DNA of 41,667 bases. Source: Spirochaetaceae bacterium (GTDB lineage: Bacteria; Spirochaetota; Spirochaetia; DSM-27196; SLAA01). A program made the position numbers and the translations under genes. The stretch is taken from assembly GCA_003556605.1 (NCBI GenBank), contig PWQX01000107.1:1-41667 (forward strand). The letters are read 5' to 3'. Below, piece after piece: positions 9,753-41,667 of the stretch (position 1 is the first letter of the stretch; every line of letters starts with the position of its first letter). A model generated the notes under the pieces. The model saw only the letters and a program-made list of their open reading frames with translations. It searched no databases and was not told the origin of the DNA.

Positions 9753-9763
9753 AAACGCCGACT

Positions 9764-11002: not shown

Positions 11003-11098
11003 CACAAGAAGCGATGCAACGCGAAAAGACAGCAGCATTGATCCTCCTCAGCACTCAGCTTCGATTCTCGATACGGCCGCTGCCAGGACTGGTACATA

Positions 11099-17589: not shown

Positions 17590-17677
17590 CGTTCGCCCGC
17601 CTATTTTGTAGCACATAATAGTAATGCAGAGGTCAGCACACGGGAACGGCAAACAGGTCAACACGGTATCCACCATG

Positions 17678-18469: not shown

Positions 18470-18540
18470 CAAGAATTATCCGCTCATACCGGGTGAGGAA
18501 CATACTTGCAATCACTGAGCCCCGTCAAGCCGGCTGTTTA

Positions 18541-19185: not shown

Positions 19186-19192
19186 GCGTGTG

Positions 19193-19198
19193 ATTATA
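19193..19198 (-). promoter_or_regulatory. TATAAT -10 element directly before a GTG start
   Basis: On the minus strand a perfect TATAAT (19198-19193) precedes the GTG at 19185 by seven bases. No good -35 is visible at 16-18 bases (TGCGGG at best). If used, the message would be leaderless. Confidence 0.3.
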
Positions 19199-19370
19199 CA
19201 CGCACCCGGTTGACCCCCGCAAATGCAAACGCGTATGCACCCGCAAAGGAAGGCCGCCCGAGCTCGCGCGACCGGTAATACCCGAAAACCTTGAAATCTT
19301 TGCAACTTCTGCGCCCCCGGACGCGTCTGTCTTACTAGACAATTACTATCGAGGCAAAAGGGTGGTGCCA

Positions 19371-23828: not shown

Positions 23829-23855
23829 GCAGCACGCCTCAGCAGCACGCCTCAG
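23829..23855. repeat. Tandem 13-base repeat across the enolase stop codon
   Basis: Two exact copies of GCAGCACGCCTCA (23829-23841 and 23842-23854) lie end to end, covering the minus-strand TGA stop of the enolase-superfamily gene. This looks like a replication-slippage duplication; I see no coding or regulatory consequence. Confidence 0.8.
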
Positions 23856-25108: not shown

Positions 25109-25121
25109 CGCCGGCGCCGTA

Positions 25122-26648: not shown

Positions 26649-26650
26649 AT

Positions 26651-28117
26651 CTATCTCTCCGCCGTCTGAAGTCCCGGGAAACCGCCTTCGGCAGCTGTTT
26701 TCCGGGCCTGCCCAAGAGCTTGGTCACGCCCCGGGTCGCTTGCATGCACTCCGCCGCCGAATCGTCTGATTCTACTATGCGAGAGTGTATGGCGCGCCAA
26801 TTTGTCCGTCAGTTCGTATCTCAATTCCTTGAATTGGTCGTCTGCGAAATGATTAACCACCTCAAGCGGTTCTTCCTGCATATCGTAGAGCTCGCCGTCG
26901 CCGTCATCACACACGACCAGCTTGTATCGGTCGTTGCATACCATAGCCCGGCCCAGCAATTCACTGTACGCTTCCGTTCGCCCGTTTAGCCCCGGTTCGA
27001 CGAGAAGATCGCAGATGTCCCATCCCTGCAGATGGTCGGAGGCCTGGATTCCTGCAACGGCCAAAAACGTGCGGTGTAGATCAATCCAGTCCACAAAGGA
27101 GCGCGCTCGTTCACCCTGGGGTACGCCCGGTGCGGAAATTATCAGAGGCACTTTCAGCGAGCTTTCGTAAAAGGTTCCCTTAAAGGGCAAACCGTGGTCA
27201 CCCAGATGATCCCCATGGTCGGAGGAAAAAACCACGAGCGTCTCCTCCCGCATGCCTCTTCGATCAAGAACGTCTAGGATTCTTCCGATCTGTTCGTCGA
27301 CAAGAGTCACTGAGGCGAGATAATACTCTCTCATCCTACGAATCTTTTCTTCGTCCATGCAGGAATAATCGCTAAGGTACAAAGGATTAGTCCGGTAGAA
27401 CGGTATTAGCTGGTGCTGATAGGCCGGCTTGTGCCGGAGCTCGCCGGCATTCCCTACCGCTTCCGGGATCGGTGCGTCGCGGTAAAGGTCCGCCAAGTCC
27501 GCCGGCGGATCGTATGGATCGTGGGGACTGTTGAAAGACACCCAGCAGAAAAAGGGCTTCGCACCGGCGCTCTCCAAGTACCGCACAGCTTGTTGGCCGA
27601 TGAACGAGTCGATGTGCAGCTCTTTCGGCAAAGGACTGCGGATCGCACCGAGCCATTCGCCGTATCCTTCAACATAGGCCGGATGCCTTCGCTCGTAACC
27701 GTTACCGGCGAGAAAGCGGGCGTGGTCGTCGAAACGGAAGAAGTGCCTCTTGTCTTCGGCGCTGATGCGGTATTCGAAGCCTTGGGGATCGTCCCACGGA
27801 TCAAAGTGCATTTTCCCGATAGCTGCGGTTTCCCACCCCGCAGACCGAAATGTATCGGCTATGGTCGGTGTTCCCGGACGTAACCAGCGGAAATTGTCGG
27901 GCACACCGTTCACGTGAGGATACTGCCCGGACATGAAGGCAGCGCGGCACGGCTGGCAGACTGGAGACGCGGACACACAGTTGTCGAATACCACACCCTC
28001 GCGCGCCAAGCGGTCGAGAGAGGGGGTGTGCATGAAATCGAGGCCGTAGCAGGGAAGCGAATCCCGTCGTTGCTGATCGCTGGTGATGAACAGAATGTTG
28101 GTTGCACGCAGACTCAT
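26651..28117 (-). CDS. Cytoplasmic cysteine-type sulfatase
   Basis: The 488-residue protein starts TNILFITSDQQRRDS, with D14 as a metal ligand. It has the sulfatase signature C54-x-P56-x-R58 (VCQPCRAAFMSGQ), in which C54 would become formylglycine. The later SSDHGDHLGDHG supplies more metal ligands. The Cys at the first position fits the anSME encoded nearby. There is no N-terminal signal peptide, so the enzyme should work in the cytoplasm and substrate must be imported, presumably by the TTT transporter upstream. The substrate is not defined; choline-sulfate-like, sugar-sulfate and phosphonate-ester activities occur in relatives. A GGAG site precedes the ATG. Confidence 0.9.
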   Translation of the reverse strand: MSLRATNILFITSDQQRRDSLPCYGLDFMHTPSLDRLAREGVVFDNCVSASPVCQPCRAAFMSGQYPHVNGVPDNFRWLRPGTPTIADTFRSAGWETAAIGKMHFDPWDDPQGFEYRISAEDKRHFFRFDDHARFLAGNGYERRHPAYVEGYGEWLGAIRSPLPKELHIDSFIGQQAVRYLESAGAKPFFCWVSFNSPHDPYDPPADLADLYRDAPIPEAVGNAGELRHKPAYQHQLIPFYRTNPLYLSDYSCMDEEKIRRMREYYLASVTLVDEQIGRILDVLDRRGMREETLVVFSSDHGDHLGDHGLPFKGTFYESSLKVPLIISAPGVPQGERARSFVDWIDLHRTFLAVAGIQASDHLQGWDICDLLVEPGLNGRTEAYSELLGRAMVCNDRYKLVVCDDGDGELYDMQEEPLEVVNHFADDQFKELRYELTDKLARHTLSHSRIRRFGGGVHASDPGRDQALGQARKTAAEGGFPGLQTAER

Positions 28118-28214
28118 GCACGCGCTCCGGTCAGCTGCGCAGTTGCGCTACAGCCAAGCGGCTCTTGATTCAACCTCTTGGTAGCCGTATTCCGATTGGC
28201 TCTCATCAGGCGGG

Positions 28215-28243
28215 AGTATAACACGCGCTGTGCTGCCCAGCAA
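28215..28243 (-). promoter_or_regulatory. Promoter of the sulfatase operon (extended -10)
   Basis: On the minus strand TTGCTG (28243-28238) and TATACT (28220-28215) are 17 bases apart, and TG one base before the -10 makes it extended. Transcription would begin near 28208, giving a leader of about 91 bases. It separates the sulfatase genes from tctCBA, although readthrough from tctA is possible because no good terminator is visible in 28221-28373. Confidence 0.55.
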
Positions 28244-28373
28244 CTTCGGCTGTCCGCACTGCGTTCAAGACCCACGTGAACATCTGTCGCCCGGTTGAAC
28301 CGATTGCGAAGCGCGGAAGCTACCAAGATCATGACCGATGCTTCAAGAAGAGGCTAACAGACGTGCCTACCGG

Positions 28374-29879
28374 CTACCGCGGCCCCGCGTTAGTGCGTCG
28401 TTTCTGTCCGACAACGGACCACACAACGAAGAAGCCGGTCAGCAGAAGAAACACCAGCGAGATAGGACGGGTCACGAACGGCAAGAACGAACCTCTTCCT
28501 ATGATCAGCGCCTGCACGAGCGACTTCTCGAGCAGCGAACCGAGAATATAGCCCATGAGAAGTGGAGCGACCGGAAAATCGAACTTCTTCATGAGGTAAC
28601 CCAGAACACCGAAAAACAGCATGACATAGACGTCAAAAATACTGCTGTTTACCGAATATGCTCCGGCGAGACATAGAACTATGACTGCCGGGAAGAGAAG
28701 TGCTCGACTCATCTGGATGACGCGTGTGAAAAGCCGGAGACCGAGCGAAGCGATGAAATAGTGGAGTACGTTGGCTACGATCAGCCCAACGAACACCGGG
28801 TAGATGATGTGCGCGGACGTTGTGAAAAGCTCCGGACCGGGCACAATTCCATGGACAAGAAACACGCCGAGGAGAATCGCCGTTATAGCATCGCCGGGGA
28901 TCCCGAGAGTAAGCAGCGGTATAAGCGCTCCGCCGACTGCGGCGTTATTCGCGGTTTCAGCCGCGAAAACGCCGTCCAGCGATCCTTCGCCGAACGTATC
29001 AGGGTCTTTTGATGCATTCTTTGCCGCACCATAAGAAACGAAGGCAGATATCGCTGAACCGCTTCCCGGAAGAGCTCCAATGCCGATGCCGATACCGGTA
29101 GAGCGGATTATCGTTCGCGCACCCGCTCTCAACTCCGCCCAGCTTACGTAGTTGTCCTCACGCCGTGTTGACACAGGCACCACCGAATCCGACCTGCCGG
29201 CAAGAGACTTCGTTTCGATGTGTACAAAGAACTCCGATACGGCAAACAGACCAATCAGCATGGGCAGGAACGGAACCCCGCCTATGAGGGGAAAGATTCC
29301 AAACGTAAACCGTGTCGCGGCCGAGACAGGCTCAATACCGATAGTATAGAAGAATATCCCCAGCAGTCCCGCGCCGATGCCCTTCAGCTTGTGCCGGCTC
29401 GATACCACCCCAATTGTTACAAGCGCAAAGAGTACGAGCGAGAACTTCTCGGTCGGCCCAAACCTGAGGGCAACTTGTGCAATCTGAGCAGCCAAGGTTA
29501 TGAGGACAATGTCGGCCACAAACTCGCCTGCCACCGATCCATAGATGGAGGCCCGAAGAGCCTTCCCCGATCTCCCCTGCAACGCAAGCGGATAGCCGTC
29601 GATTCCCGTTACCGCCGCCGCCGGTGCGCCCGGGGTATTCAACAAGATCGCCGATATCGACCCGCCGTAGGTTCCGCCCTTGTAGACTCCCATAAGCAGA
29701 CAGAGACCCGTGACCGGGTTCATGTAGAAAGTAAGCGGAAGGAGCAATGCCACAATCATCGGCACGTTCAAACCGGGGATAGCCCCGATAGTAATGCCAA
29801 TGAGCAGACCTATGACAACGACGAGAAGGTTCTCAACAGTGAAGAAAATCGGAACTGCACTGAGCCATACGTCGAACAC
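28374..29879 (-). CDS. tctA: TTT transporter large membrane subunit TctA (second system)
   Basis: The 501-residue TctA protein has the duplicated Gly/Pro signatures: GAIPGLNVPM near the start, YGGSISAILLNTPGAP around residue 70, and NNAAVGGALIPLLTLGIPGD around residue 315. It is a paralogue of the protein at 5199-6707 but clearly diverged. GTG 29879 is preceded by AGGA at a suitable distance. It follows TctB by 24 bases and completes the transporter. The sulfatase operon begins 256 bases downstream on the same strand. Confidence 0.95.
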   Translation of the reverse strand: MFDVWLSAVPIFFTVENLLVVVIGLLIGITIGAIPGLNVPMIVALLLPLTFYMNPVTGLCLLMGVYKGGTYGGSISAILLNTPGAPAAAVTGIDGYPLALQGRSGKALRASIYGSVAGEFVADIVLITLAAQIAQVALRFGPTEKFSLVLFALVTIGVVSSRHKLKGIGAGLLGIFFYTIGIEPVSAATRFTFGIFPLIGGVPFLPMLIGLFAVSEFFVHIETKSLAGRSDSVVPVSTRREDNYVSWAELRAGARTIIRSTGIGIGIGALPGSGSAISAFVSYGAAKNASKDPDTFGEGSLDGVFAAETANNAAVGGALIPLLTLGIPGDAITAILLGVFLVHGIVPGPELFTTSAHIIYPVFVGLIVANVLHYFIASLGLRLFTRVIQMSRALLFPAVIVLCLAGAYSVNSSIFDVYVMLFFGVLGYLMKKFDFPVAPLLMGYILGSLLEKSLVQALIIGRGSFLPFVTRPISLVFLLLTGFFVVWSVVGQKRRTNAGPR

Positions 29880-29903
29880 GCCGTTTTCCTGTGAGAATAC
29901 CGG

Positions 29904-30377
29904 CTAAAAGAGTAGCCCGTGGGGTAGTGGAACACGGAACGCGTGTTCGAACAGCAGCCACACCGTGAGCGGTAAACCAATTGCCCCTAAACCAATCTTG
30001 ACGACACTGCGTGCGCCGAAGACAAAAGCAAAAATCGCAAAGAATACAGCGCTGGTGAAAACAAACCCCAGTACGGAGAACAGAAAGGAATACGCAAAAA
30101 GCAGGAGTATAGCTCCGGCAGCTCGGATGCTCCCTTCACGGGTAACCGCTGCCGGAGCCTCGCGCGTCCGTGCGAATACCGCCACCGCAACCATAGCTAC
30201 GCCGGTTGCGACGAGCGCAATCGCCACCGCGAGAGGAATCAACGCCGGTGAGGTCCTCGTCTGGACGGCAGGCGTGGCTGCAACCTCGCTCGGCACCAGG
30301 AGCATTATGGCGACTCCGATGAGAATGAAGACGATACCTTCTGCCAACCGCTGCCGGTCCGGTTGTTGCTGAGCCAC
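29904..30377 (-). CDS. tctB: TTT transporter small membrane subunit TctB (second system)
   Basis: The 157-residue protein has four hydrophobic segments and ends LFEHAFRVPLPHGLLF, the usual TctB C-terminus. The start is GTG at 30377 after GGGCGGG. It sits in the standard C-B-A order with 24-base gaps on either side. The N-terminal MAQQQPDRQR stretch is polar and cytosolic. Confidence 0.88.
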   Translation of the reverse strand: MAQQQPDRQRLAEGIVFILIGVAIMLLVPSEVAATPAVQTRTSPALIPLAVAIALVATGVAMVAVAVFARTREAPAAVTREGSIRAAGAILLLFAYSFLFSVLGFVFTSAVFFAIFAFVFGARSVVKIGLGAIGLPLTVWLLFEHAFRVPLPHGLLF

Positions 30378-30401
30378 GCAGTCCCGCCCTTCGCTATAAG
30401 A

Positions 30402-31373
30402 CTAGTTCAGTCCCATTCTCTCAATAATGCCGCTGTAGCCCTCGTAGTCGTTCACCCAGATCTGATAGAACTCCTCGCCACCTCTCGGGTCAAGACTTTC
30501 ACCTACCCGGTTCATTAAGGTGTGAAAGTCTTCGTCTTCCATGACCTGCATGAAGACCTCGCGGAGTTTCCGGGTGACCTCCTCAGGCATACCCTTCGGA
30601 CCGGCGATGCCGGTAAAGGGGCTGGCTACAACATCCCATCCCATCTCGGTTGCGGTGGGAGTGTCGGGTAGCGCATCATCCCGGGCGTCGCTGAAAACCA
30701 TGATAGCGTTCAACGAACCCTCGTTCACGTGAGAAGTTATGGTGGCGACGCTCGAGGTCATGGCGATATCCACATGCCCCCCAAGCGCAGCCTCAACCGC
30801 TTCGGCGTCGTCACCTACCGGAACGTGGGAGAACTCAAGCCCGGCAGCATCGGACCAGCGCAGAAAACCAAGCTGTGGTCCTGACAGTGACACGCAGGCA
30901 TACGTCACCTCCCCGGGGTTCTCCTCTGCATACTCAACCAGCTCGCTTACGTCGCTCCAAGGTCGGTCCGGACGAGACGCAATCGCCATCGTACTGCTGC
31001 CGATCTGTCCGATAGGAGTAAAGTCAAACGTGTCATACGGTGCTCTATCAAAGACAACTGGGAAAACGTTGGTACCGGGCGTTATCGCGAGTAAAGTATA
31101 ACCGTCCGGATCAGCCTCGGCGACATACTGCCCGCCTATGACGCTCCCGCCCCCTGCTCTATTGACCACTACCATTGGCTGATCCAGGTAGTTAGAAGCT
31201 ATTGTAGCAAACATGCGGGCGTTGATGTCCGTGCGCCCACCGGCTCCCCACGGCACAACTAGTTCAATTGATTTTGTCGGATAATCTTCCGGCGGATCCG
31301 GCTCTGCCTCCCCTGCCGCCAATACCGTAGGCGCCACCATTACCGCCAGTAACAGCACCATCGTTCGCTTCAT
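30402..31373 (-). CDS. tctC: TTT transporter periplasmic binding protein TctC (second system)
   Basis: The 323-residue Bug-family binding protein has a signal peptide (MKRTMVLLLAVMVAPTVLA) followed by AGEAEPDPP. The mature start YPTKSIELVVPWGAGGRTD is canonical; the Bug family binds carboxylates using conserved water-mediated contacts. It is preceded by AAGGAGGGGG eight bases before the ATG. It is the first gene of its operon and diverges from the second enolase-superfamily gene (188 bases apart). A promoter with perfect TTGACA and a tandem repeat lie between them. The substrate is inferred to be an organic acid, perhaps sulfated. Confidence 0.95.
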   Translation of the reverse strand: MKRTMVLLLAVMVAPTVLAAGEAEPDPPEDYPTKSIELVVPWGAGGRTDINARMFATIASNYLDQPMVVVNRAGGGSVIGGQYVAEADPDGYTLLAITPGTNVFPVVFDRAPYDTFDFTPIGQIGSSTMAIASRPDRPWSDVSELVEYAEENPGEVTYACVSLSGPQLGFLRWSDAAGLEFSHVPVGDDAEAVEAALGGHVDIAMTSSVATITSHVNEGSLNAIMVFSDARDDALPDTPTATEMGWDVVASPFTGIAGPKGMPEEVTRKLREVFMQVMEDEDFHTLMNRVGESLDPRGGEEFYQIWVNDYEGYSGIIERMGLN

Positions 31374-31561: not shown

Positions 31562-32704
31562 ATGAATTGTATAAGGGACATTCACGTTTTCCCACTGCGC
31601 ATCCCGATGATTCGCGGGTTTAGCTTTGCGTCCGGGAGCGCCGGTGAAGCCGGGGGCTGGGCCCCGCACGTGCTCGTGAAAATAATCGACGACGAAGGCT
31701 GCTATGGTTGGGGAGAAGCGCGGCCCGTAGCGCAATGGTCGTACGAAACGCTGGAAACGGTGACGTCAACTCTGCGCCGGTATCTCATCCCGGCCGTACT
31801 TGGCCTGGAAGTGCATGACAGACGGGGGCTGCATGAGCGAATGAATTCGTGCATTGGCCGAGGCCCCAGTACCGGCCAGCCGATTGCCAAGGCTGCGGTC
31901 GACGTCGCTCTGCACGACCTCATAGCCCGAAGGTTACAGATTCCGTTAAGGACCTTCCTCGGAGGATCAAGTGAGAAGTGTTCCGTTGATTTGAGCTACA
32001 CGCTGGCGTCCACCGATCACGACGAGTTGGAGCGTGACATCGAGGCTGGGCTCGAGAGCGGTTTCGTTCACGCAAACTTCAAGTGCGGAGTTCATGCCGA
32101 AAAGGACATCCGAACCGCCGAGACAATACGCACACGCCTCACTGATGATTCGTTCTTATGGGCGGACGCCAATCAGGGTTACAAGCTTCATCAAGCACGC
32201 CGGTGCGCGTCTGAGTTTGCGTCGATAGGTATCAGCGTACTTGAACAGCCGTTTCCAGCCGATCAGCGCGGACTGATGCGAGCTTTGCGGGCGTCAACAA
32301 GATTACCTCTGGCGATCGATGAGTCGTGCGTCAGCGTTGCGGATTATTTCGAGTACGTGTCGCAAAGCCTGGTCGACTACCTGGTGATCAAGGTCACGCG
32401 AAGCGGCGGGATTTGGCCCTCGGTTGGTCAGATCCGCGTTGCAGAGGCGGCTGGGATTCCGCTGTTGGTAAGCGGTCTTGCCGATGGGCTGCTCACGAAA
32501 CTGGCCTCGTGCCAAACCGCAGCTGCTTTCGGATTCTACGGACCCGCCGCACTGAACGGCAGCCAGTTCATCGATGAATCCATCCTCTACCCGGACAAAC
32601 CGAACATAGAAAACCGCGGCAGCGTATTGCTCGATGAGTCGGTAGGAATAGGAGTTGAGCCGGATGAGGCGGGAATAAGAGAGCTTTTGATGGCCGATCT
32701 GTGA
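31562..32704 (+). CDS. Enolase-superfamily enzyme, second (MR/MLE type)
   Basis: The 380-residue protein has metal ligands D202 (ADANQG), E228 (LEQPF) and D253 (IDES) and the base K277 (VIKVTRSGG). The usual K-x-K pair is altered: position 172 is Asn and only K174 remains (NFKCG). That keeps the MLE-type fold and the main catalytic Lys but changes the active site, so the reaction may differ from the first enolase-superfamily gene in this window. It belongs to the rightward group beside the TRAP transporter and methyltransferase-like genes. It probably processes an acid made or imported by that group. Confidence 0.85.
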   Translation: MNCIRDIHVFPLRIPMIRGFSFASGSAGEAGGWAPHVLVKIIDDEGCYGWGEARPVAQWSYETLETVTSTLRRYLIPAVLGLEVHDRRGLHERMNSCIGRGPSTGQPIAKAAVDVALHDLIARRLQIPLRTFLGGSSEKCSVDLSYTLASTDHDELERDIEAGLESGFVHANFKCGVHAEKDIRTAETIRTRLTDDSFLWADANQGYKLHQARRCASEFASIGISVLEQPFPADQRGLMRALRASTRLPLAIDESCVSVADYFEYVSQSLVDYLVIKVTRSGGIWPSVGQIRVAEAAGIPLLVSGLADGLLTKLASCQTAAAFGFYGPAALNGSQFIDESILYPDKPNIENRGSVLLDESVGIGVEPDEAGIRELLMADL

Positions 32705-32844
32705 TCGCGGCTGTTCATGACTGCGCACGCCCGGCCGGTATTCGGCTTCCCCTCACCGACGGAAACCACGCGATACCCTTCGCCATGTACGTCTGTCGGG
32801 CACGCGGTCGTAGCGAGTCGGTCGCTTGAAAACAATCCGGCTGC

Positions 32845-32872
32845 TTGACAGCGCGCTGGTGCGGAATATAGT
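32845..32872 (+). promoter_or_regulatory. Strong promoter before the first URO-D-fold gene
   Basis: A perfect TTGACA (32845-32850) and TATAGT (32867-32872, five of six) are 16 bases apart. Transcription would start near 32879, leaving a leader of about 100 bases that contains a long-range stem. Confidence 0.6.
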
Positions 32873-32910
32873 ATCGTTACTTATCGAAAGTCAGTACGAA
32901 ACGCAACCAT

Positions 32911-32959
32911 GTCGCAACGCCATCTGCGTGATACTGCTCTTGCGCGACGACGTTGCGAC
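32911..32959 (+). other. Long-range stem in the leader of the URO-D-fold gene
   Basis: GTCGCAACG (32911-32919) is perfectly complementary to CGTTGCGAC (32951-32959) around a 31-base loop. The stem ends six bases before the AGGTGG ribosome-binding site at 32965-32970. It could affect translation; no known riboswitch class is recognised. Confidence 0.4.
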
Positions 32960-32978
32960 GCACTAGGTGGTGGCAAGT

Positions 32979-34013
32979 ATGACCGACCAACAGTGGCAGA
33001 CGCTTGTGAACGCAGTGAACGGAGGCAGCGACAGTCCGGTCGTGGGATTCGTTGTTGACAGCCCGTGGATTCCAAACTGGTTCGGAATCTCTATTCTTGA
33101 CTATTTCACCTCCGATGAGCTGTGGTTTGAGGCCAATCTGTCCGTTCAACAGGCATTTCCGGATTGTTTGTTTCTTCCGGGCTTCTGGTCGGAGTACGGC
33201 ATGTGCACGGAGCCGTCCGCGTTCGGCGTCCGTTGCGTGTTTCCGTCTAACGATTTTCCTACCCCGAAGAGTGATCCAAGTATGCTTGAGCGACTTGATT
33301 CACTGACGAAGCCGAATCCCCGGGAAGACGGGTTACTCCCGTTCACAATAAACAGGCAGCGGTTGCTTCGTGACAGGATTCGGCAGACCGGCCACGAAAT
33401 CCGTCTCGCAGTTGCTCGCGGTCCGCTGAATATCGCCTCCTTCCTCGCCGGGACGACAGAGTTTCTCCTTGCTGCCAAACTAGAGCCTCAGAAGGCCCAT
33501 GATTTCCTGAGCTTGATCACCGACTTTCTTGACGATTGGATCACCTACCAGTTCGAGTGCTTCCCGTCCATCGACGGGGTCTTCTTGCTCGACGATATCG
33601 TTGGCTTTCTTGGAGAGGATGACTTTCTCTCGCTCGCCTTCCCCTACTTTAAGAGACTCTACGAGCGCTTCCCTGCGACGGTGAGGATGTTTCACAACGA
33701 TGCCCCCTGCAAAGTTTCAGCACCCCATCTTGCGGCCATGGGCGTGAACCTCTTCAACTTCGGAACCGATCTGGCCTTCAACGAGGCTCGCGAGCTCTGC
33801 GGCGATGAGATAGCCTTGATGGGGAATGTTCCCCCGAGAGACGTTCTCGCCCAAGGAACACCGGCGGAGATATCCGCCGCCGTTCGTGATCAAATCACCT
33901 CTGCGCCTACACTCCGGCGTACCGTTCTGTCGTGCGGCGGCGGCATGCCTCCCGGGGTTTCGACACAGAACCTCAACGCTTTTCTGGAAGCGGCGGGGGT
34001 CAAGAGCCGATAG
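32979..34013 (+). CDS. URO-D-fold protein, first (uroporphyrinogen decarboxylase / corrinoid methyltransferase family)
   Basis: The 344-residue protein belongs to the URO-D superfamily. It has GNVPPRDVLAQGTPAEI (about 277-293) and SCGGGMPPGVS (about 319-329), typical of MtaA/MtbA-like and related methyltransferases. Those enzymes hold zinc with H-x-C plus a later Cys to activate a thiol such as coenzyme M. Here the His position reads FHNDAPC, with H219 but no Cys two residues on, while the later Cys in SCGGG is kept. It is unlikely to be a haem-pathway decarboxylase because no haem genes are near. ATG 32979 is chosen because AGGTGG is eight bases upstream; GTG 32967 is an alternative. Confidence 0.8.
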   Translation: MTDQQWQTLVNAVNGGSDSPVVGFVVDSPWIPNWFGISILDYFTSDELWFEANLSVQQAFPDCLFLPGFWSEYGMCTEPSAFGVRCVFPSNDFPTPKSDPSMLERLDSLTKPNPREDGLLPFTINRQRLLRDRIRQTGHEIRLAVARGPLNIASFLAGTTEFLLAAKLEPQKAHDFLSLITDFLDDWITYQFECFPSIDGVFLLDDIVGFLGEDDFLSLAFPYFKRLYERFPATVRMFHNDAPCKVSAPHLAAMGVNLFNFGTDLAFNEARELCGDEIALMGNVPPRDVLAQGTPAEISAAVRDQITSAPTLRRTVLSCGGGMPPGVSTQNLNAFLEAAGVKSR

Positions 34014-34133
34014 CACAAGCGCTTACGTGAAGACCCGCGGTCATCGACCGCCTCCCGTGCTGCGGGAAACTCTACAGCCGCTGCTGCATCAAATACCGGC
34101 ACGGCCACAGCCTATGCCTGACTCTGTGACTCA

Positions 34134-34180
34134 TAATTAGATATTAATTTCTTGACTCCGCCGCTGTTTGCGTATAGAGT
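34134..34180 (+). promoter_or_regulatory. Promoter of the TRAP transporter operon with AT-rich upstream element
   Basis: TTGACT (34152-34157) and TAGAGT (34175-34180) are 17 bases apart. The 18 bases before the -35 are almost pure A/T (ATAATTAGATATTAATTT), resembling an UP element that binds the polymerase alpha subunits. Transcription would begin near 34187. Confidence 0.5.
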
Positions 34181-34243
34181 TGTCGTGTCGGTTTGTAGCG
34201 GTAATCGCTAACAATCAACAAAGAGTGACGAAAGGAGGCTGAG

Positions 34244-35248
34244 ATGTCAAAGAAACATCTTGTCGTTTTGGCGGTGACGTTAGTGCTATTGGTACCCGGC
34301 GGGGCATTCGGGGCCGGTGCGCCGGAGGAAGAATTCCGGATGCGGATGTCGACCAACTTGGGCCCTGAGGGAACCGTTGGAAAGGCTCTCACACACCTTG
34401 GTGAATTGATAGAAGAGCGAAGTGAGGGCAGAATCGCAACGGTCGTTAACCACGGTGCGGAAATGGGTACACAGCACGAGCAGGTCGAAATGGCGATGGA
34501 TGGCTCTCTCGAATTGGGGGTGTTCTCTCCGGGCACCGCCCTGGGACCATACGTCGAGCAGCTGGCATTGTTCGACCTGTCCTATGTGTACGAAGATGAA
34601 GAGCACTATGTTCGAACTATCCGGGGGATCGAGGATGAAGTCAGTCGGCTGTTGGAGCCCTATAATCTGATGGCGGTCGGAGGCCAGAACATGGGGTTCA
34701 GACATATGCTCATCGAGCCACGGCCCGTTTACCGGCCGCAAGACCTTGAAGGACTGGTGATGCGCGGGCCGAACCCAATGTACGTCGCCATGTTCGAGGC
34801 TTTCGGGGCGGATGGCGTAACTACCGACTGGACGGAAATCTACACTGCCCTGCAGACGGGCGTGATTGACGGGATGGAAGCGTCGCCGGATATGATTCTC
34901 TCCATGCGCTTTCACGAAGTCGCCAACCACCTCAGCCTCACCAATCATCAGCCTGCCGGGGTATTCTATTTCATAAACACCGATTGGTTGGACTCGCTAC
35001 CCGAGGACCTGCAAGAGCTCGTGCTTGACACCGCGCGCGATGCCGCCGACTACCAGATTGAATTGGATCGTGTGGCTCAGGAAGAGGCTCTGCAGACGCT
35101 GATCGATGAAGGCGTTGAAGTAAACGAGGTAGCGGACATCAGCGAGTTTATGGAAAAAGTGGAAGGCTTGCACGAAGAGTACGTTCAGCGGGGTCCCCAC
35201 TGGGAGGACTTCTACAATAAGCTCTTGGAAGCCGGTGCAGCAAACTAG
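34244..35248 (+). CDS. dctP: TRAP transporter solute-binding protein DctP
   Basis: The 334-residue periplasmic protein has a signal peptide (MSKKHLVVLAVTLVLLVPGGAFG) followed by AGAPEEE. It carries TRAP-family features such as FDLSYVYED, GGQNMGFRHM, the Arg-containing MRGPNPMYVAMFEAFGA, and TDWTEIYTALQTGVIDGME. The Arg in this region normally salt-bridges a carboxylate ligand. AAAGGAGG is well spaced before its ATG. It heads dctP-dctQ-dctM. A hairpin follows it. Confidence 0.95.
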   Translation: MSKKHLVVLAVTLVLLVPGGAFGAGAPEEEFRMRMSTNLGPEGTVGKALTHLGELIEERSEGRIATVVNHGAEMGTQHEQVEMAMDGSLELGVFSPGTALGPYVEQLALFDLSYVYEDEEHYVRTIRGIEDEVSRLLEPYNLMAVGGQNMGFRHMLIEPRPVYRPQDLEGLVMRGPNPMYVAMFEAFGADGVTTDWTEIYTALQTGVIDGMEASPDMILSMRFHEVANHLSLTNHQPAGVFYFINTDWLDSLPEDLQELVLDTARDAADYQIELDRVAQEEALQTLIDEGVEVNEVADISEFMEKVEGLHEEYVQRGPHWEDFYNKLLEAGAAN

Positions 35249-35272
35249 GGCAAAATAAGCACCTCTACAGAA

Positions 35273-35307
35273 GCACCCCTGCGAGGTGAACGGCCCCGCA
35301 GGGGTGC
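35273..35307 (+). terminator. Intercistronic hairpin between dctP and dctQ
   Basis: GCACCCCTGCG (35273-35283) pairs perfectly over 11 bases with 35297-35307 around a 13-base loop. No T-run follows. As at tctC, it probably stabilises the binding-protein message and lowers downstream expression. Confidence 0.65.
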
Positions 35308-35364
35308 GTGCGCATAGTGCCGCTGCCGGGCGCGGCGGCTACGCGGGAGAAGGCGGGAAGAACC

Positions 35365-35862
35365 ATGAGAACGGTATATCTGAGCATGGATGCAATACGG
35401 ACGGCCTTGATCATTGCAATACTCGCATTTATGACCGGGGCGGGAGCAGTTCAAGTCTTCCTGCGCTACACTCCCGGCTTCGTTTCGTTTCCCTGGTACA
35501 ATGAGATTGCCAGTCATTTGTTTGTCTGGCTGGTGTTCTTGGCCGCGAGCGTGTGCGTCCGCGAGAAAGCGCACCTCAACGTCGATTTCTTCATAGTTAA
35601 GCTCTTCAAATCAACCCACGTCTTGGTAATAAAGAAGGTCACCTCACTCGTAATTCTGGCGTTTCTGGCGCTTATCGTATATCAGGGAACTCTCAGAACT
35701 GTCCATCACGTGGGAACAATGTTGCAGAACGCTCCACTATCAAGAGGTCTGTTCTACATGGCGATTCCGGTAGGGTCGCTGTTGATGTTCATTGAGTACT
35801 TAATCCTGTTGATATATGGGGAAAACCCGTTTACTGCACGTACCCCTAACATCACTGTATAG
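35365..35862 (+). CDS. dctQ: TRAP transporter small membrane subunit DctQ
   Basis: The 165-residue protein has four predicted helices. It carries the QVFLRYTPGFVSFPWYNEIA pattern of DctQ, then FLAASVCVREKAHLNVDF with the conserved His and Asp. The start at 35365 follows GGCGGGAAG; a longer frame from 35308 would overlap the hairpin. It lies between dctP and dctM, ending 11 bases before dctM. Confidence 0.9.
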   Translation: MRTVYLSMDAIRTALIIAILAFMTGAGAVQVFLRYTPGFVSFPWYNEIASHLFVWLVFLAASVCVREKAHLNVDFFIVKLFKSTHVLVIKKVTSLVILAFLALIVYQGTLRTVHHVGTMLQNAPLSRGLFYMAIPVGSLLMFIEYLILLIYGENPFTARTPNITV

Positions 35863-35873
35863 GCAGGTAGCGC

Positions 35874-37163
35874 ATGTGGCACGTCGGCCTGTTGTTCGTC
35901 CTCTTTCTGTCTCTTCTGTTCTTCGGGTTTCCGATCTTTCTGGCTACGGGCATCGCCGGGCTGGTGATGGTGTTCTTGCTGGACATTCCGCTTTCGTTGG
36001 TCATCATCAGGATGTTCGGAGGAATAAGCTCCTTTAGTCTGGTCGCTATACCGTTCTTCGTCCTTGCCGGAAACATCATGATGGTGTCGGATATAACCGA
36101 TCGGATCGTTGATTTCGCCAATGCGCTTGTCGGCAGGCTCAAGGGCAGCCTGGGATACGTGAATATACTTTCATCAATGCTTTTTGCAGGTATCCAGGGC
36201 TCCGGCGTAGCAGACGCATCCGCTATCGGCTCGATTATGATTCCAACAATGAAGCGGCAAGGGTATGAGGGCGATTATTCGGTAGCCGTTACCGCCTCCT
36301 CGTCCGCTATCGGCCCAATCATCCCTCCCAGTGTCGCAATGATCATGTATGCCTATTACACTGAGCTTTCGGTTGGGAGACTTTTTCTGGGAGCGCTTAT
36401 TCCCGGAATAGTAATCGGGATTGGGCTTATGATTGCACACGCGATCATATATCGACTCCGCGGATACGAGATCGAAACCGAAAGCTTTCACATAGGCAAC
36501 GTTCTGACCACCTTCGTCAAGGCAATCGGTGCGTTCATCATGCCCATCATCATACTGAGCGGCATCGTCTTCGGCGTTTTCACTCCAACCGAATCCGGCA
36601 TATCCGCGGTTTTGTACGGGCTTTTCTACGGCCTGTTCATCTCCAGGAAGCTGAAGCTGAAGGACTTTCCCGGTATTTTCCTTAGAACTGCCAAGACTAC
36701 GGCGATTGTGCTGATTACCCTTTCAATGGCCAGCATCTTCTCTAATGTTCTTATCAGACTTAACTTCCAGCGGATTGTTATAGCGTTGATTATGGAGCAT
36801 TTCGCGAATCCGTACACCGCCACGATCGTCATCATGCTGCTCATCGTGTTCATTGGCATGTTTGCCGACCCTCCGATTCTCATCGCAATGTTTTCCTCAA
36901 CGTTGCTTGCGACCGGCACGGTTCTCGGCTTTGAACCGATTCACTATGGCGTGGTGATGGTCATGGCGATCATGATTGGTGCAGTCACGCCACCGGTTGG
37001 ATCGATGCTTTTCATAGCCTGTTCCATCGCCGATGTTCCTCTTGAAAAGACCGTTAGGGTGATGATTCCCTTCGCGGCGGTTCTCTTTTTGACCGCCGTT
37101 CTTACCCTGTTTGTACCATCGATGGTGGAGTCGGTGGTTCACGTGTTCTACCCGGCGACGTAG
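35874..37163 (+). CDS. dctM: TRAP transporter large membrane subunit DctM
   Basis: The 429-residue, 12- to 13-helix permease has the DctM repeats IPFFVLAGNIM and GSGVADASAIGSIMIP, then GPIIPPSVAMIMYAY. The C-terminal half has TPPVGSMLFIACS. It carries out sodium-coupled import of the DctP-bound acid. Length is normal. Its ATG directly follows dctQ. A URO-D-fold gene starts 40 bases after its stop, so the transporter and that enzyme are probably one transcript. Confidence 0.95.
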   Translation: MWHVGLLFVLFLSLLFFGFPIFLATGIAGLVMVFLLDIPLSLVIIRMFGGISSFSLVAIPFFVLAGNIMMVSDITDRIVDFANALVGRLKGSLGYVNILSSMLFAGIQGSGVADASAIGSIMIPTMKRQGYEGDYSVAVTASSSAIGPIIPPSVAMIMYAYYTELSVGRLFLGALIPGIVIGIGLMIAHAIIYRLRGYEIETESFHIGNVLTTFVKAIGAFIMPIIILSGIVFGVFTPTESGISAVLYGLFYGLFISRKLKLKDFPGIFLRTAKTTAIVLITLSMASIFSNVLIRLNFQRIVIALIMEHFANPYTATIVIMLLIVFIGMFADPPILIAMFSSTLLATGTVLGFEPIHYGVVMVMAIMIGAVTPPVGSMLFIACSIADVPLEKTVRVMIPFAAVLFLTAVLTLFVPSMVESVVHVFYPAT

Positions 37164-37203
37164 CCGGCATAGCTGGTGCGGTTGGATAACACAGGAGGCG
37201 ACG

Positions 37204-38253
37204 ATGCGTTCAATCGAGAGAACGGAAGCAGCATTCCGCGGCGAGACACCGGACAGAGCTCCCTTTGTACCGTCGATTTATGAGCATGGCGCTGCGCTAT
37301 TGGGCAAAACCCCCTCTGCGGTGGCGCGCGACCCGCAATTAATGGCGCAGGCAGCGATCGCAGCTTTCGAGACGTATGCGCACGACCTGGTGACGGTCGG
37401 AATCGACATCTATAACATCGAAGCTGAAGCATTAGGCTGCGAAGTCCGCTATCATGAAGACAGTAGCGCGATTCCGGGCGTCGTATCTCACCCACTGATG
37501 CACGAAGAGACGCTGAATGCCCGATCAATTGCGTTACCCGTGGAAGACAGCAGCAGTAATCGGCTGGGCCTCATAGTCGAGGCCTGTAGCGCCGCGTTTC
37601 GGGCGATAGGCCGAGACGTATGGGTATACGGCTGCATTGGGGGCCCGTTTTCCCAAGCTGTAGAGCTCAGGGGCTTCGAGAACCTGCTCATGGATATAGT
37701 CACAAATCCTGATGAAGTGCACGCGCTCATGCGAGTAACAACAGAGCTTTCAATGAGGCACGCCGGACGGCTGTCGAAGCAGGGTGTTGGAATAAACGTG
37801 TATGAATCGTGGGCGACTTTGCCTCTCATTGACCCGCGAATATTCGAGCAGTTCGTTGTCCCGTACGAACGCACGATAATCCAGACCATTCGCAGCGACT
37901 ACCGTACGCCGCCGCCTGCGGTAATTATGGGCGGCAATGTGACGGAGCTTATCCGTTTTTTTGTCGAGACGGGAACATCGTTGATTGCCGCAGACTACAA
38001 TACGGATTTCGGGTTCGTACGCAGGTTTCTTGATGAGAATGATAGCGATATTGTGGTCAGAGGGTGTGCCGATCCCAAGATGATTGAACGCAGGGAATGG
38101 GACGGAGTCGAGCGCGCCGTGGCGGTGCTTGCTGAGAAGTCGCGGGGTATGAACCGTTTCGTCTGGGGATGTGGTTGTGTTTCGTATGATACCGCAATAT
38201 CTGATTTACTGCGCTTCAAGGAATTGTGTTTGGGCCAGCCGCGGCGAGAATAG
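37204..38253 (+). CDS. URO-D-fold protein, second (methyltransferase MtaA/MtbA-like)
   Basis: The 349-residue protein begins with MRSIERTEAAFRGETPDRAPFVP, the typical start of MtaA/MtbA-type methyltransferases. Where MtaA has HICGN-type zinc ligands this protein reads VIMGGNVTEL, so His and Cys are lost. A late FVWGCGCVSYD keeps Cys residues where the third ligand lies. The zinc site is therefore incomplete, and the enzyme may bind its methyl donor or acceptor differently. GGAGG (37194-37198) precedes ATG 37204 by five bases. It lies 40 bases after dctM and 31 before the DeoR gene, consistent with one operon. Confidence 0.82.
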   Translation: MRSIERTEAAFRGETPDRAPFVPSIYEHGAALLGKTPSAVARDPQLMAQAAIAAFETYAHDLVTVGIDIYNIEAEALGCEVRYHEDSSAIPGVVSHPLMHEETLNARSIALPVEDSSSNRLGLIVEACSAAFRAIGRDVWVYGCIGGPFSQAVELRGFENLLMDIVTNPDEVHALMRVTTELSMRHAGRLSKQGVGINVYESWATLPLIDPRIFEQFVVPYERTIIQTIRSDYRTPPPAVIMGGNVTELIRFFVETGTSLIAADYNTDFGFVRRFLDENDSDIVVRGCADPKMIERREWDGVERAVAVLAEKSRGMNRFVWGCGCVSYDTAISDLLRFKELCLGQPRRE

Positions 38254-38284
38254 AATGCAGTGTTCGCCAACGCGATAGAGAGCG

Positions 38285-39061
38285 ATGATGGCATACAGCA
38301 CCAGGCGAAAAGATATAGTCAGGATCGTACAGCTTTTGAGGCGCGTAAGCGTCCAAGAGTTGACCCAACGATTGAATGTATCGGAGGCGACGGTTCGAAA
38401 GGACCTTGCTTTCTTAGAGGACGAAGCTATTCTGTTCCGCACGCACGGCGGAGCTGCTCTGGCGGAAGAAAACCGCAACATGCACAACGTGCGGAACCGC
38501 GAGAACACCTACCTCGAGGAAAAGCGGGCAATCGCCCAAAGAGCGCGCGCCTTGGTGTCCGAAGGGGAAACGATCTTCTTAGATTCGGGTAGCACCTGTG
38601 CGGTTATAGCCGCCGAAATCAAGGACATGTCGCTTCGCGTTATTGCACATTCTGTGGGCGTAATCAATGAGCTGATCAATGCCGACGATGGGCTCGCGCT
38701 TTATTCCCTCGGAGGGAGTTATCGGCCGGGGTCCGGTTCGTTCATCGGTCCCCTCGCACAGGAGAACCTGCAAAGATTTCGAATTGAAACCTGTTTCGTG
38801 GGCACCGCCGGGTTCTCAACGGACGGAACCTTCTACGCGCAGAACCTGATTGAAGCTGAGCTGAAAACGGAGGCATTAAGACTGTCAACCCGGCGGGTCA
38901 TTGTGGCCGACTATTCTAAGATAAGCCGAACGGAGTTCGCAGTCTTCGCAAGACCACGCGATTTTGATATCCTCATTCTGGGTGGGCACGTAAACGATCA
39001 ACAGCGCGGAGAGTTGAGTAGGCTTGACGTAGAAATCCTTTTCGCCGGTTTGGATGAGTGA
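38285..39061 (+). CDS. DeoR-family transcriptional regulator
   Basis: The 258-residue protein has a DeoR helix-turn-helix near the N-terminus (VSVQELTQRLNVSEATVRKDL, shown as VSVQELTQRL then SEATVRKDL; about residues 22-42). It continues with FRTHGGAAL and the sugar-phosphate-isomerase-like sensor fold (IFLDSGSTC and ADYSKISRTEF). Such regulators bind phosphorylated sugars or related metabolites. The start is one of two adjacent ATGs at 38285/38288. It follows the second URO-D gene on the same strand and separates it from the MetE-like gene, so it probably controls this cluster. Confidence 0.88.
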   Translation: MMAYSTRRKDIVRIVQLLRRVSVQELTQRLNVSEATVRKDLAFLEDEAILFRTHGGAALAEENRNMHNVRNRENTYLEEKRAIAQRARALVSEGETIFLDSGSTCAVIAAEIKDMSLRVIAHSVGVINELINADDGLALYSLGGSYRPGSGSFIGPLAQENLQRFRIETCFVGTAGFSTDGTFYAQNLIEAELKTEALRLSTRRVIVADYSKISRTEFAVFARPRDFDILILGGHVNDQQRGELSRLDVEILFAGLDE

Positions 39062-39148
39062 GCTGCGGATCGCTTATTAGACTGAAGCACCGCGCTTCAA
39101 TGCCCCGCCCGGGACCTTTCAAGAGCCGCTATCGAAGAACTCGCACGC

Positions 39149-39176
39149 TTGCGTGACGAAACGAGTATGCTATTAT
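39149..39176 (+). promoter_or_regulatory. Promoter of the MetE-like/MttB-like genes
   Basis: TTGCGT (39149-39154) and TATTAT (39171-39176, five of six) are 16 bases apart. Transcription would start near 39183, giving a leader of about 84 bases. That leader contains two copies of ATTCGGCTG (39207-39215 and 39222-39230). Confidence 0.5.
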
Positions 39177-39266
39177 GCTACGCAACCGGTGGGTGAAAAT
39201 CCTGTAATTCGGCTGAAGCGTATTCGGCTGTAGGGTAGCAGTCTATTCCATTGAGCGGAGGATATC

Positions 39267-40277
39267 ATGCGGAGCATCTTGACGACGGTTGTAGGAAGCT
39301 ATCCCGTACCTGATTGGTTGCGAGTCTACCCGAGTCGGCCCAACTTACGCGATGCGGTGCTCACCGTGCTCAAGACCCAGGAACTTGCGGGGCTCGACGT
39401 CATCACCGACGGGGAAATCTCCAGGTTTAGTGTCGATCACCCTGAGACGAACGGAATGATAGAGACGTTCGTTCGGCCGTTGTCCGGAGTACGCACTGTC
39501 TTGACGCGAAGCGAGCTTGAAGAGTTTGCCGCGCGGTCGGATATGCAGTTTCGCTCCCATCCGGCCGGAGTTGTGTACGGTGACGTTGGCGAGGGGACGA
39601 TGAATCTCCTCGAGAGCTGGGAGTTCGTCAAAAACCTGAGTGAGAAGCCTCTGAAGTTCACGGTTACCTCGCCGTACATGCTGGCCAAAACACTGCTGGA
39701 CCAGCGCTACGCCGATATCCGCGAACTCGCGTGGGCACTAGCCGAGGTCTTACGCCGGCAGGTCGAGGGTATCGATGCGCCTTACGTCCAGATTGACGAG
39801 GCCAACCTTCCGGGAAACCCGGGCGATGCGATGTGGGCACATGAGGTGGTCAACCGGGTTCTCGAGGGTGTACGGGGCGACCGCGGCATGCACCTGTGTT
39901 TCGGCAACTACGGAGGACAGGCGATCCAGCGTGGCGTGTGGAAGGACATGATCGCGTTTATCAATAACGTACAGGTTTCCCACGTTGTGCTGGAGTTTGC
40001 TCGACGCGGTTATGAGGAGCTCCCGCTGTTCAGGGAGCTTAGGGGAGACATCGAGCTCGGCGTCGGTGTGATCGACATCAAGGACAACGAGATCGAAACT
40101 CCTGAAACCGTCGCGCGGCGCATAGAGCGGGCTGCGGAGATTCTGGGGGCAGATCGCGTACGGTGGGTGCATCCCGACTGCGGGTTCTGGATGCTTCCGC
40201 GGACCGTGGCGGACGGCAAGATGCATGCACTCGTTGCCGGCCGAGACCTGTTTATTGGAGCGAAGCCCAAGCGCTGA
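39267..40277 (+). CDS. Stand-alone MetE catalytic-domain protein (core-MetE methyltransferase)
   Basis: The 336-residue protein matches only the C-terminal catalytic barrel of cobalamin-independent methionine synthase; MetE itself is about 750 residues. It opens TTVVGSYPVPDWLR, includes QIDEANLPG, and has all four expected zinc ligands: H209-x-C211 (MHLCFGN), E243 (VLEFARRG) and C305 (HPDCGF). It should activate a thiol. Stand-alone core-MetE proteins are known or proposed to take methyl groups from corrinoid proteins instead of folate. AGCGGAGG precedes its ATG. It is followed after 98 bases by the MttB-like gene, and its neighbours include two URO-D proteins. Confidence 0.85.
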   Translation: MRSILTTVVGSYPVPDWLRVYPSRPNLRDAVLTVLKTQELAGLDVITDGEISRFSVDHPETNGMIETFVRPLSGVRTVLTRSELEEFAARSDMQFRSHPAGVVYGDVGEGTMNLLESWEFVKNLSEKPLKFTVTSPYMLAKTLLDQRYADIRELAWALAEVLRRQVEGIDAPYVQIDEANLPGNPGDAMWAHEVVNRVLEGVRGDRGMHLCFGNYGGQAIQRGVWKDMIAFINNVQVSHVVLEFARRGYEELPLFRELRGDIELGVGVIDIKDNEIETPETVARRIERAAEILGADRVRWVHPDCGFWMLPRTVADGKMHALVAGRDLFIGAKPKR

Positions 40278-40375
40278 GCGAACAGATTGGCGGTGCGTCC
40301 GGGACATAAATCCGGCAACGTCAACGCAGACAGCGGTGCACAAGAGCCCACCAAAATAGCCGGGAGGTGCAACAG

Positions 40376-41667
40376 ATGACGGTCGAGGTAGAGCCCATTC
40401 ACGAAACGGCGCTGGCGTTACTGGAGAATCCTGGGGTACGTATTGAGCACGATGAGATATGCGAGCTTCTGCTCACGCATGGAGCCCGGAAAGGCACCGG
40501 GGCGAATGTCATCCGGTTTCCACGCCGCCTCGTGCAGGAGGCTGTCGCGCTATGTCCATCCTCTTTTGCATTCTGTGACCGCTTTGGCGCCGGAAAACCG
40601 GTAGCCCCGGACGGCGATCCGGTTATCTGGTCGGTGCCGGGTCTCAACATCTACGAGAATGGAGCATCGAGGCCCTTTACTTCTGACGACCTGCCCGGCT
40701 GGACGCGGCTTCTGCACCACCTCCCGAACGTAGACGGAATATTCAGTTACTCCCTAGAAGACGTTCCGGCCAAAGCGCGTGATGTCGTAGGCCTCAACAT
40801 TATCAGCCGCAACTCCACCAAACACATACGGGTATTCTGCTTCTCGCCCGAGGGCGCGGAAATCATGGTGCGAATGAAGCAAGTGGTCGGCGACCACCCG
40901 TGGTTCAGCATCGGGTTTACTGCACACGGCCCTTTGCGCTGGACCCACCTCGCGTTGGAGATCTTCCGGCGTACGGCCGGTTGGAACATCCCCGTGACCG
41001 TCAATGGCGAGCCGATGGCCGGTGTCTCAGGCCCGGTGACACTCGCCGGCTCGTGTGCGGTTGGAACGGCGGAGATTCTCTCCGGTATAGTGGTCAACCA
41101 ACTGTTGGAACCCGGGAGGCCGTGTGTTTTCAATCTGGGGTTGGCTCATACGTTCGACATGAGGACGACTATAGCGGTCACGGGAGGACCGGAAAACGCG
41201 CTCTACGCCGGCGCTGCGGCCGATCTCGGACGTTTCTACGGGATTCCGTCGGCAAGCTGGGTGTCTACCGAATCCATGCTGCCCGACTCGCAAGCCGCAC
41301 TGGAGAAGATGTTTGGATTCGCCACTCACCTTGGGAAGCGGGTTTCGGTGGTGTGGAGTATCGGGCAACTAGAGTCGGAAATGACCGTCTCCCCGGCTCA
41401 AGCAGTGCTGGACGATGAAATGATCGCCTTCACGAAACGCTACCTGCAGGGCATGGAGATCAGCGCTGAGACCCTCGCGCTGGAGGCGATTCGGGAAACA
41501 GGAATTGGGGGTTCGTTTCTGGAACATCCACATACCATGGAATACTTCCGCAATGAGTTCTTCGAACCGCGAGTATTGTTTCGAAAGCGCCGCTCGAACT
41601 GGGAGGCTGAAGGGGCTCCAAGCGCTGCTGCGGTAGCCGAAAAGCGGGCGATTGAGCTTGCGAATGA
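40376..41667 (+). CDS. MttB-family methyltransferase (trimethylamine/betaine type), 3' end outside the window
   Basis: The open frame starts at ATG 40376 after GGGAGGTG and continues past the last base; 430 codons are visible of an expected 470-500. It begins ETALALLENPGVRI, with the MttB pattern of a central barrel. It includes GPVTLAGSCAVGTAEILSG, EPGRPCVFNLG, LPDSQAALEKM and IGQLESEMTVSPAQAVLDDEM. MttB enzymes move a methyl group from a quaternary or tertiary amine onto a corrinoid protein. There is no in-frame TAG in the visible part, so it is a non-pyrrolysine member, like MtgB for glycine betaine. The corrinoid protein is not seen and may lie just beyond 41667. Confidence 0.88.
   Translation, partial: MTVEVEPIHETALALLENPGVRIEHDEICELLLTHGARKGTGANVIRFPRRLVQEAVALCPSSFAFCDRFGAGKPVAPDGDPVIWSVPGLNIYENGASRPFTSDDLPGWTRLLHHLPNVDGIFSYSLEDVPAKARDVVGLNIISRNSTKHIRVFCFSPEGAEIMVRMKQVVGDHPWFSIGFTAHGPLRWTHLALEIFRRTAGWNIPVTVNGEPMAGVSGPVTLAGSCAVGTAEILSGIVVNQLLEPGRPCVFNLGLAHTFDMRTTIAVTGGPENALYAGAAADLGRFYGIPSASWVSTESMLPDSQAALEKMFGFATHLGKRVSVVWSIGQLESEMTVSPAQAVLDDEMIAFTKRYLQGMEISAETLALEAIRETGIGGSFLEHPHTMEYFRNEFFEPRVLFRKRRSNWEAEGAPSAAAVAEKRAIELAN

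Follow-up and report, generated by a model that had tools for sequence, protein, structure and literature searches.

Which pathway, if any, unites the genes at the end of contig PWQX01000107.1 from a Spirochaetaceae bacterium (GCA_003556605.1), where a tripartite ATP-independent periplasmic (TRAP) transporter is encoded together with two proteins of the uroporphyrinogen decarboxylase (URO-D) superfamily, a stand-alone catalytic domain of the methionine synthase MetE (core-MetE) and an MttB-family methyltransferase? A preliminary description had proposed that this cluster imports a methylated carboxylate such as a betaine, removes its methyl group and passes it to a thiol. The stretch of 41,667 nucleotides analyzed here (the window) represents contig C292 of a 3.88 Mb genome (296 contigs, 99.4% complete, 4.4% contaminated), and its end coincides with the contig end at 41667. 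According to the results presented below, the region can be regarded with a probability of roughly 0.5 as the substrate-specific end of a network for corrinoid-dependent demethylation in a spirochaete with heterotrophic metabolism, its substrate being putative. It probably comprises two adjoining catabolic modules sharing one corrinoid carrier and not one linear betaine pathway.

The genes initially named, i.e. those of DctPQM, the two URO-D proteins, a DeoR-family regulator (38285-39061, PF00455/PF08220), core-MetE, MttB and an enolase-superfamily enzyme at the cluster head, are all present on the plus strand, giving nine confirmed genes at 31562-41665. As each family call exceeds the curated Pfam cut-off, these matches are not due to chance.

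Corrinoid protein, activase and proposed transfer to homocysteine

A corrinoid protein with a DxHxxG motif and its reductive activator, both of which the preliminary description had recommended to look for, taking lack of the former anywhere in the genome as refutation, are encoded in the genome on contig C154. The former is a 222-aa protein with B12-binding_2 and B12-binding domains and the motif DLHDIG (G000:C154:8989-9657), its best NCBIfam model being MtgC_2 (226 bits, below the cut-off of 370), and is followed in the operon by a PocR-AraC regulator (PF10114), a DUF1638 protein (PF07796) and a RACo activase (PF14574/17651/17650). In Ruegeria, RamA and a DUF1638 protein are induced along with the betaine demethylase MtgBC (PMC12478193) and, hence, the C154 gene set is the expected set of partners. 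Within the order, for which 46 related and partly incomplete metagenome-assembled genomes were compared, this corrinoid-protein clade is found in 18.

Transfer of the methyl group to a thiol is credible as well. Core-MetE (39267-40277, 336 aa, PF01717 with 75 bits) consists of the MetE catalytic half only, without the N-terminal folate-binding half. Alignment of eight orthologues from the order (62-67% identity to the window protein) shows S11, E50, D177, H209, C211, E243, and C305 to be invariant. By alignment to 3rpd and the Thermotoga maritima MetE (1xpg), E50 and D177 correspond to homocysteine ligands and H209, C211, E243, and C305 to zinc ligands (ligand list from PMC7857596), while S11 belongs to a GSYP motif outside the local PDB alignment. 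Judged by these residues, core-MetE is a competent homocysteine S-methyltransferase, and the full ligand set makes homocysteine a credible thiol acceptor. Methyl-corrinoid as the donor is a candidate role resting on genomic linkage. Core-MetE is encoded in 10 of the 46 genomes and all ten also carry the C154-type corrinoid-protein clade (Fisher p 1e-5; at genus level p 0.005; samples are not independent). In genome G016, a URO-D protein with a His-Cys-Cys site, the corrinoid protein, PocR, DUF1638, RACo, core-MetE and an orthologue of the second window URO-D protein (URO-D#2) follow each other in this order, and core-MetE and URO-D#2 are close together in the window, G014 and G016. Since the genome also encodes MetH, core-MetE is dispensable for basic methionine synthesis.

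Metal sites of the two URO-D proteins

Both URO-D proteins had been assigned to the MtaA/MtbA type, which is not in line with their metal sites. In an alignment of about 30 URO-D proteins, the motif His-x-Cys...Cys is present in several of the corrinoid-adjacent proteins of relatives (G016, G012, G014, G011, and G028_U2) and in one paralogue of this genome (C280:28090-29133). In contrast, URO-D#1 (about 32979-34013, PF01208 with 108 bits; open frame from 32967, start set by alignment to a Gemmatirosa protein, see below) has His-Asn-Asp, with a Cys near the third position out of register. In URO-D#2 (37204-38253, PF01208 with 156 bits), Ile-Met-Gly replaces His-x-Cys at the first two ligand sites and the Cys is retained at the third, all three orthologues being alike. 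With the NCBIfam MtaA/CmuA model, the two proteins reach 58 and 82 bits, under the cut-off of 235, compared with 211 bits for the His-Cys-Cys paralogue on C280. The latter site is typical of S- and Se-methyltransferases, whereas O-methyltransferases have carboxylates or non-coordinating residues instead of Cys (PMC10418091), and zinc-free URO-D-fold enzymes are represented by CdmB and the Moorella O-demethylase (PMC13222342). As both window proteins are without the thiol site, they can be read as substrate-side enzymes and are, by their motifs, likelier demethylases of this kind than acceptor enzymes of the MtaA/MtbA type.

The predicted structure of URO-D#2 (pLDDT 72) shows the URO-D fold, with the Methanosarcina mazei methyltransferase 4ay8 as nearest relative (Z 25.8) and UroD at Z of about 24; the fold was rejected as functional discriminator because UroD and methyltransferases alike score at Z 24-26. 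A single-sequence structure of URO-D#1 (pLDDT 40) was not used.

Possible sugar-acid context of URO-D#1 and the TRAP transporter

The best match of URO-D#1 in a plasmid collection is a protein of Gemmatirosa kalamazoonensis (plasmid NZ_CP007129.1, 929675-930742; 34% identity, E 3e-63) which has His-Asn-Asp in common with it (H229-N230-D231). Its gene is separated by about 105 bases from that of a corrinoid protein sharing 50% identity with the C154 protein. On the minus strand, the gene order is D-mannonate oxidoreductase (UxuB, 352 bits versus a cut-off of 281), UxuA (PF03786), the URO-D protein, the corrinoid protein, RACo, an uncharacterized protein and a homocysteine S-methyltransferase (PF02574). 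Upstream of these genes, a GH2 glycosidase and SusD are encoded. The gene content of this operon reads as uronate catabolism coupled to corrinoid-dependent demethylation with homocysteine as acceptor, and the substrate it suggests for URO-D#1 is an O-methylated uronate or sugar acid rather than a betaine. Uptake of betaine by the TRAP system, as initially assumed, found no direct support, the closest informative URO-D#1 relative being located in a uronate operon.

A special form of the demethylation network would therefore be corrinoid-dependent O-demethylation of a methylated sugar acid, e.g. 4-O-methylglucuronate. The acid would be imported by DctP (34244-35248, PF03480 with 197 bits), DctQ (35308-35862, PF04290) and DctM (35874-37163, PF06808 with 335 bits), its methyl group would be transferred by URO-D#1 to the corrinoid protein and by core-MetE to homocysteine, and the enolase-type enzymes would process the remaining acid, among them the mandelate racemase/muconate lactonizing enzyme (MR/MLE) homologue at the cluster head (31562-32704, PF13378 with 126 bits, PF02746 with 50). 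Besides the Gemmatirosa operon, where UxuB and UxuA directly precede the demethylation genes, several of DctP's closest PDB relatives, solved with sugar acids bound, are consistent with this route. In this genome, contig C280 combines another TRAP system with UxuA-like and galactonate-dehydratase-like enzymes and three URO-D proteins, and in the same-genus genome G028 a C280-type DctP/DctM and a His-Cys-Cys URO-D protein are encoded beside the corrinoid protein, MtaB, DUF1638 and RACo. Moreover, core-MetE of a Caldilineaceae operon is accompanied by Gfo/Idh and a sugar-isomerase-like gene as well as, 1.3 kb downstream, by an MR/MLE enzyme (L102 12255-13406) 62% identical to the window head enzyme, which connects the head gene with core-MetE beyond a single phylum. 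An oxygen substrate would also agree with the His-Asn-Asp site of URO-D#1 according to the criterion given above (PMC10418091). However, identity of URO-D#1 to the Gemmatirosa protein is only 34%, the window itself is without UxuA/UxuB, and the literature searched has no enzyme of this kind characterized on sugars. Hence, we consider the sugar-acid route possible, albeit doubtful in this specific form.

MttB and its accompanying genes

MttB (40376-41665, PF06253 with 209 bits versus a cut-off of 25) is cut by the contig end and is without about 28-35 C-terminal codons, judged by the 458-465-aa open frames of its relatives. Its frame has no internal stop, implying an enzyme without pyrrolysine, and Ser297 is found at the pyrrolysine position when the protein is aligned with M. 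barkeri MttB and with MtgB; as there is no in-frame TAG, pyrrolysine was ruled out. Close orthologues (71-81%) are restricted to G011, G014, and G016 within the order and to G303 in a phylum sample of 393 genomes.

The proposal of a single cluster holds for its genes but overlooked that MttB travels with a minus-strand block at 23852-31373. The latter encodes a second MR/MLE-like enzyme (23852-25105, PF13378, 51-61% identity to G303 and G016), a DUF3604/PHP-type protein (25122-26648, 67-75%) and a sulfatase (26651-28117, PF00884, 57-69%), all three adjoining MttB in both of these genomes, as well as the tripartite tricarboxylate-type transporter TctABC (28374-31373; versus G303, TctA and TctC 67-69%, TctB 43%), whose genes, in the order TctCBA, are also beside MttB in G303. 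Within the order, a DUF3604 protein of this identity is confined to this genome and G016. Due to this conserved association, the cluster at 31562-41665 is seen as joining two modules. HAAT-type ABC transporter genes are further neighbors of MttB in three genomes (G303, G014, and G011), two of which (G303 and G014) also have a PreA-like enzyme there. In G011, a fusion of homocysteine methyltransferase and methylenetetrahydrofolate reductase (MTHFR) is encoded 104 bases upstream of the MttB orthologue; the vicinity of MttB to homocysteine methyltransferases of different fold, this fusion and the window core-MetE, supports homocysteine as one methyl acceptor.

Near the sulfatase gene, the minus strand of the window also encodes a radical SAM/SPASM protein (22569-23720) similar to anaerobic sulfatase-maturating enzymes. 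On contig C144 of this genome, a tightly packed plus-strand locus (L030, 373-6243) shows an unusual pairing of two MttB paralogues (29 and 26% to the window MttB) with seemingly biosynthetic genes, encoding an asparagine-synthase-like and a SAM-dependent methyltransferase-like protein. A haloarchaeal plasmid (L226, NZ_CP100467.1, 2333-18358) carries genes for an MttB homologue, an ABC transporter and a core-MetE-like methionine synthase together with an aromatic amino acid ammonia-lyase, urocanate hydratase and an amidohydrolase, which could be breakdown of ergothioneine or hercynine with demethylation.

Possible further methyl acceptors

Contig C98 encodes an MtgD-like methyl-tetrahydrofolate:corrinoid methyltransferase (9276-10298; PF00809 with 73 bits, above the cut-off of 25.5; NCBIfam PRK07535 with 185 bits, under the cut-off of 259 and, thus, a match at family level only) adjoining a formate-tetrahydrofolate ligase (10425-12191), in addition to MTHFR, EtfB and apparently EtfA. 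The opposite strand encodes two homocysteine methyltransferases, one of them stand-alone (17040-17927) and the other fused to MTHFR (17930-19837). Similar C1 modules are present in G014 (including FolD) and G016 and, partially, on a short contig of G011. From this gene set, folate and homocysteine are both available as methyl acceptors. Homocysteine as sole acceptor, in the sense that a tetrahydrofolate methyltransferase is missing, was rejected because of the MtgD-like enzyme encoded beside the ligase.

Weighing of the explanations

Several observations argue against the demethylation network. The corrinoid protein is encoded on a contig other than the window's, so that together with the C1 module on C98 the parts are distributed over three separate contigs. 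Its adjacency to MttB was seen in no genome, the two genes being on the same contig in G014, about 43 kb apart. The full five-family set is together in no relative examined, MttB, core-MetE and TRAP genes being apart in G014, G016, G011, and G303; what is kept in relatives are sub-pairs such as core-MetE and URO-D#2. URO-D#2, for its part, is without two of the three usual zinc ligands and has no characterized close relative. Finally, the core-MetE family has at least 560 relatives, and the neighbors at the best 80 loci are scattered sugar-catabolic families, with a corrinoid protein in G016 alone; none of the 74 loci outside the spirochaetes is near corrinoid or MttB genes, which may point to a general role of core-MetE.

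Taken further, the genes might be unrelated neighbors, with core-MetE as accessory methionine synthase, the URO-D proteins as catabolic enzymes independent of corrinoids, and MttB alone engaged in methyl metabolism. In line with this, the 14 URO-D paralogues of this genome are dispersed and none adjoins the corrinoid protein, and core-MetE is widespread in other phyla without corrinoid neighbors. In addition, a plasmid of Aminobacter sp. MSH1 (L227, NZ_CP028970.1) carries TRAP genes and a core-MetE-like gene (annotated as URO-D) with genes for citryl-CoA lyase, CaiB and a ring-cleavage dioxygenase, so that not all relatives of core-MetE need be methionine synthases. However, core-MetE, URO-D#2, the corrinoid protein and RACo are adjacent in G016, the co-occurrence of core-MetE with the corrinoid protein is complete (10/10), and the URO-D#1 relative of Gemmatirosa directly precedes a corrinoid protein. 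An assembly of unrelated neighbors is therefore unlikely. The linear betaine pathway, in which TRAP import and MttB demethylation would be followed by MtaA/MtbA-type URO-D proteins and core-MetE passing the methyl group to a thiol, is very improbable: MttB, core-MetE and TRAP genes are co-directional and near each other, and the known betaine system MtgBCDE with corrinoid protein, DUF1638 and activase (PMC12478193) has counterparts in this genome, but the URO-D proteins are without the His-Cys-Cys site and the MttB orthologues are accompanied by TctABC or HAAT ABC transporters, not TRAP, in G303, G014, and G011, and likewise do not adjoin TRAP genes in G016.

The uptake-and-demethylation proposal is thus supported in part, with respect to the corrinoid partner and a credible transfer to homocysteine, but not to MtaA/MtbA-type URO-D proteins, betaine as TRAP substrate and conservation of five families. 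In the demethylation network favored here, one module would consist of the head MR/MLE enzyme, URO-D#1, the TRAP transporter, URO-D#2, DeoR and core-MetE, and the other of MttB with the sulfatase-DUF3604-enolase-TctABC block. An organic acid would be imported by the TRAP transporter. As expected from its family, MttB would most likely demethylate a quaternary amine or betaine, and URO-D#1 and/or URO-D#2 would most likely remove an O-methyl group, considering their non-thiol metal motifs and gene context. The methyl group would be loaded onto the Co(I) state of the C154 corrinoid protein, and RACo, whose gene is present, would re-reduce the oxidized form. It could then be released via core-MetE to homocysteine, yielding methionine, or via the MtgD-like protein of C98 to tetrahydrofolate and further to MTHFR and formate-tetrahydrofolate ligase, for which the genes are present and flux is presumed.

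Both methylated osmolytes and the O-methylated sugar acids of plants and algae occur in abundance. If correct, a corrinoid route for methoxy-uronates feeding the methyl group straight into methionine would represent new demethylation chemistry, with URO-D#1, the corrinoid protein and RACo as well as core-MetE as concrete enzymes, and would assign a function to the core-MetE family widespread in uncultured bacteria and to at least two URO-D subfamilies.

Additional features of the window

Promoter and terminator scans gave hits at chance level (7 vs 5.6 and 10 vs 10.8, respectively); a single TTGACA-16-TATAGT is located ahead of URO-D#1, at 32845. The window furthermore encodes a B12-binding radical SAM protein with DUF4070 (19362-20954, plus strand), a near copy of which is truncated where contig C273 ends (L032 3290-3883), and a further TctABC set adjoining a creatinase/M24-family protein (5199-9496, minus strand).

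Comparison with known systems

Similarity to the methanol methyltransferase MtaABC is given by the same-genus genomes G027 and G028, where MtaB is paired with the same corrinoid-protein clade, whereas in the C154 operon no MtaB adjoins the corrinoid protein. In G027 (L187 964-7260), MtaB, the corrinoid protein, PocR, DUF1638, RACo and a homocysteine methyltransferase are grouped, likely representing a methanol-to-homocysteine system. In type 1 mlp gene clusters (PMC10418091), a corrinoid protein and activase are likewise accompanied by more than one URO-D protein, but Mlps retain His-Cys-Cys while the window URO-D proteins do not. Three-component O-demethylases and CdmBCA (MtvB/OdmB/VdmB/MtoB), several of them with zinc-free URO-D-fold enzymes (PMC13222342), share the arrangement of a URO-D-fold methyltransferase I, corrinoid protein and activase; unlike in these, the neighboring acceptor gene is here core-MetE and not a tetrahydrofolate methyltransferase, and no close relative was identified among them. 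With the folate-independent core-MetE/MesA-MesD methionine synthases (PMC7005905, PMC7857596), the window core-MetE shares the restriction to one MetE catalytic domain in which all zinc and homocysteine ligands are retained. However, it was not assigned within MesA-D, and it would act together with a corrinoid protein of the MtgC/MtaC type, not with the corrinoid iron-sulfur protein or MtrA; MesX (DUF1852), the partner of MesD, is not encoded among the window neighbors, the rest of the genome not having been searched for DUF1852.

The literature searched describes neither a pairing of core-MetE with MttB or URO-D demethylases nor a corrinoid-based demethylation of sugar acids. MtgBCDE of Ruegeria pomeroyi (PMC12478193), combining glycine betaine demethylation with a split methionine synthase, is matched by an MttB-family demethylase, a stand-alone corrinoid protein, activase, DUF1638, a pterin-binding MtgD-like protein, a MetF-type enzyme and a homocysteine methyltransferase in the spirochaete genome. 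In contrast to MtgBCDE, URO-D#1, URO-D#2 and core-MetE are encoded beside MttB, the parts are spread over three contigs, and characterized members are merely distant relatives of the MttB clade found here (about 30% identity). Hence, the parts, i.e. MttB/MtgB, corrinoid protein plus activase, core-MetE and a URO-D-type methyltransferase I, are individually known, while their combination is undescribed in the literature searched.

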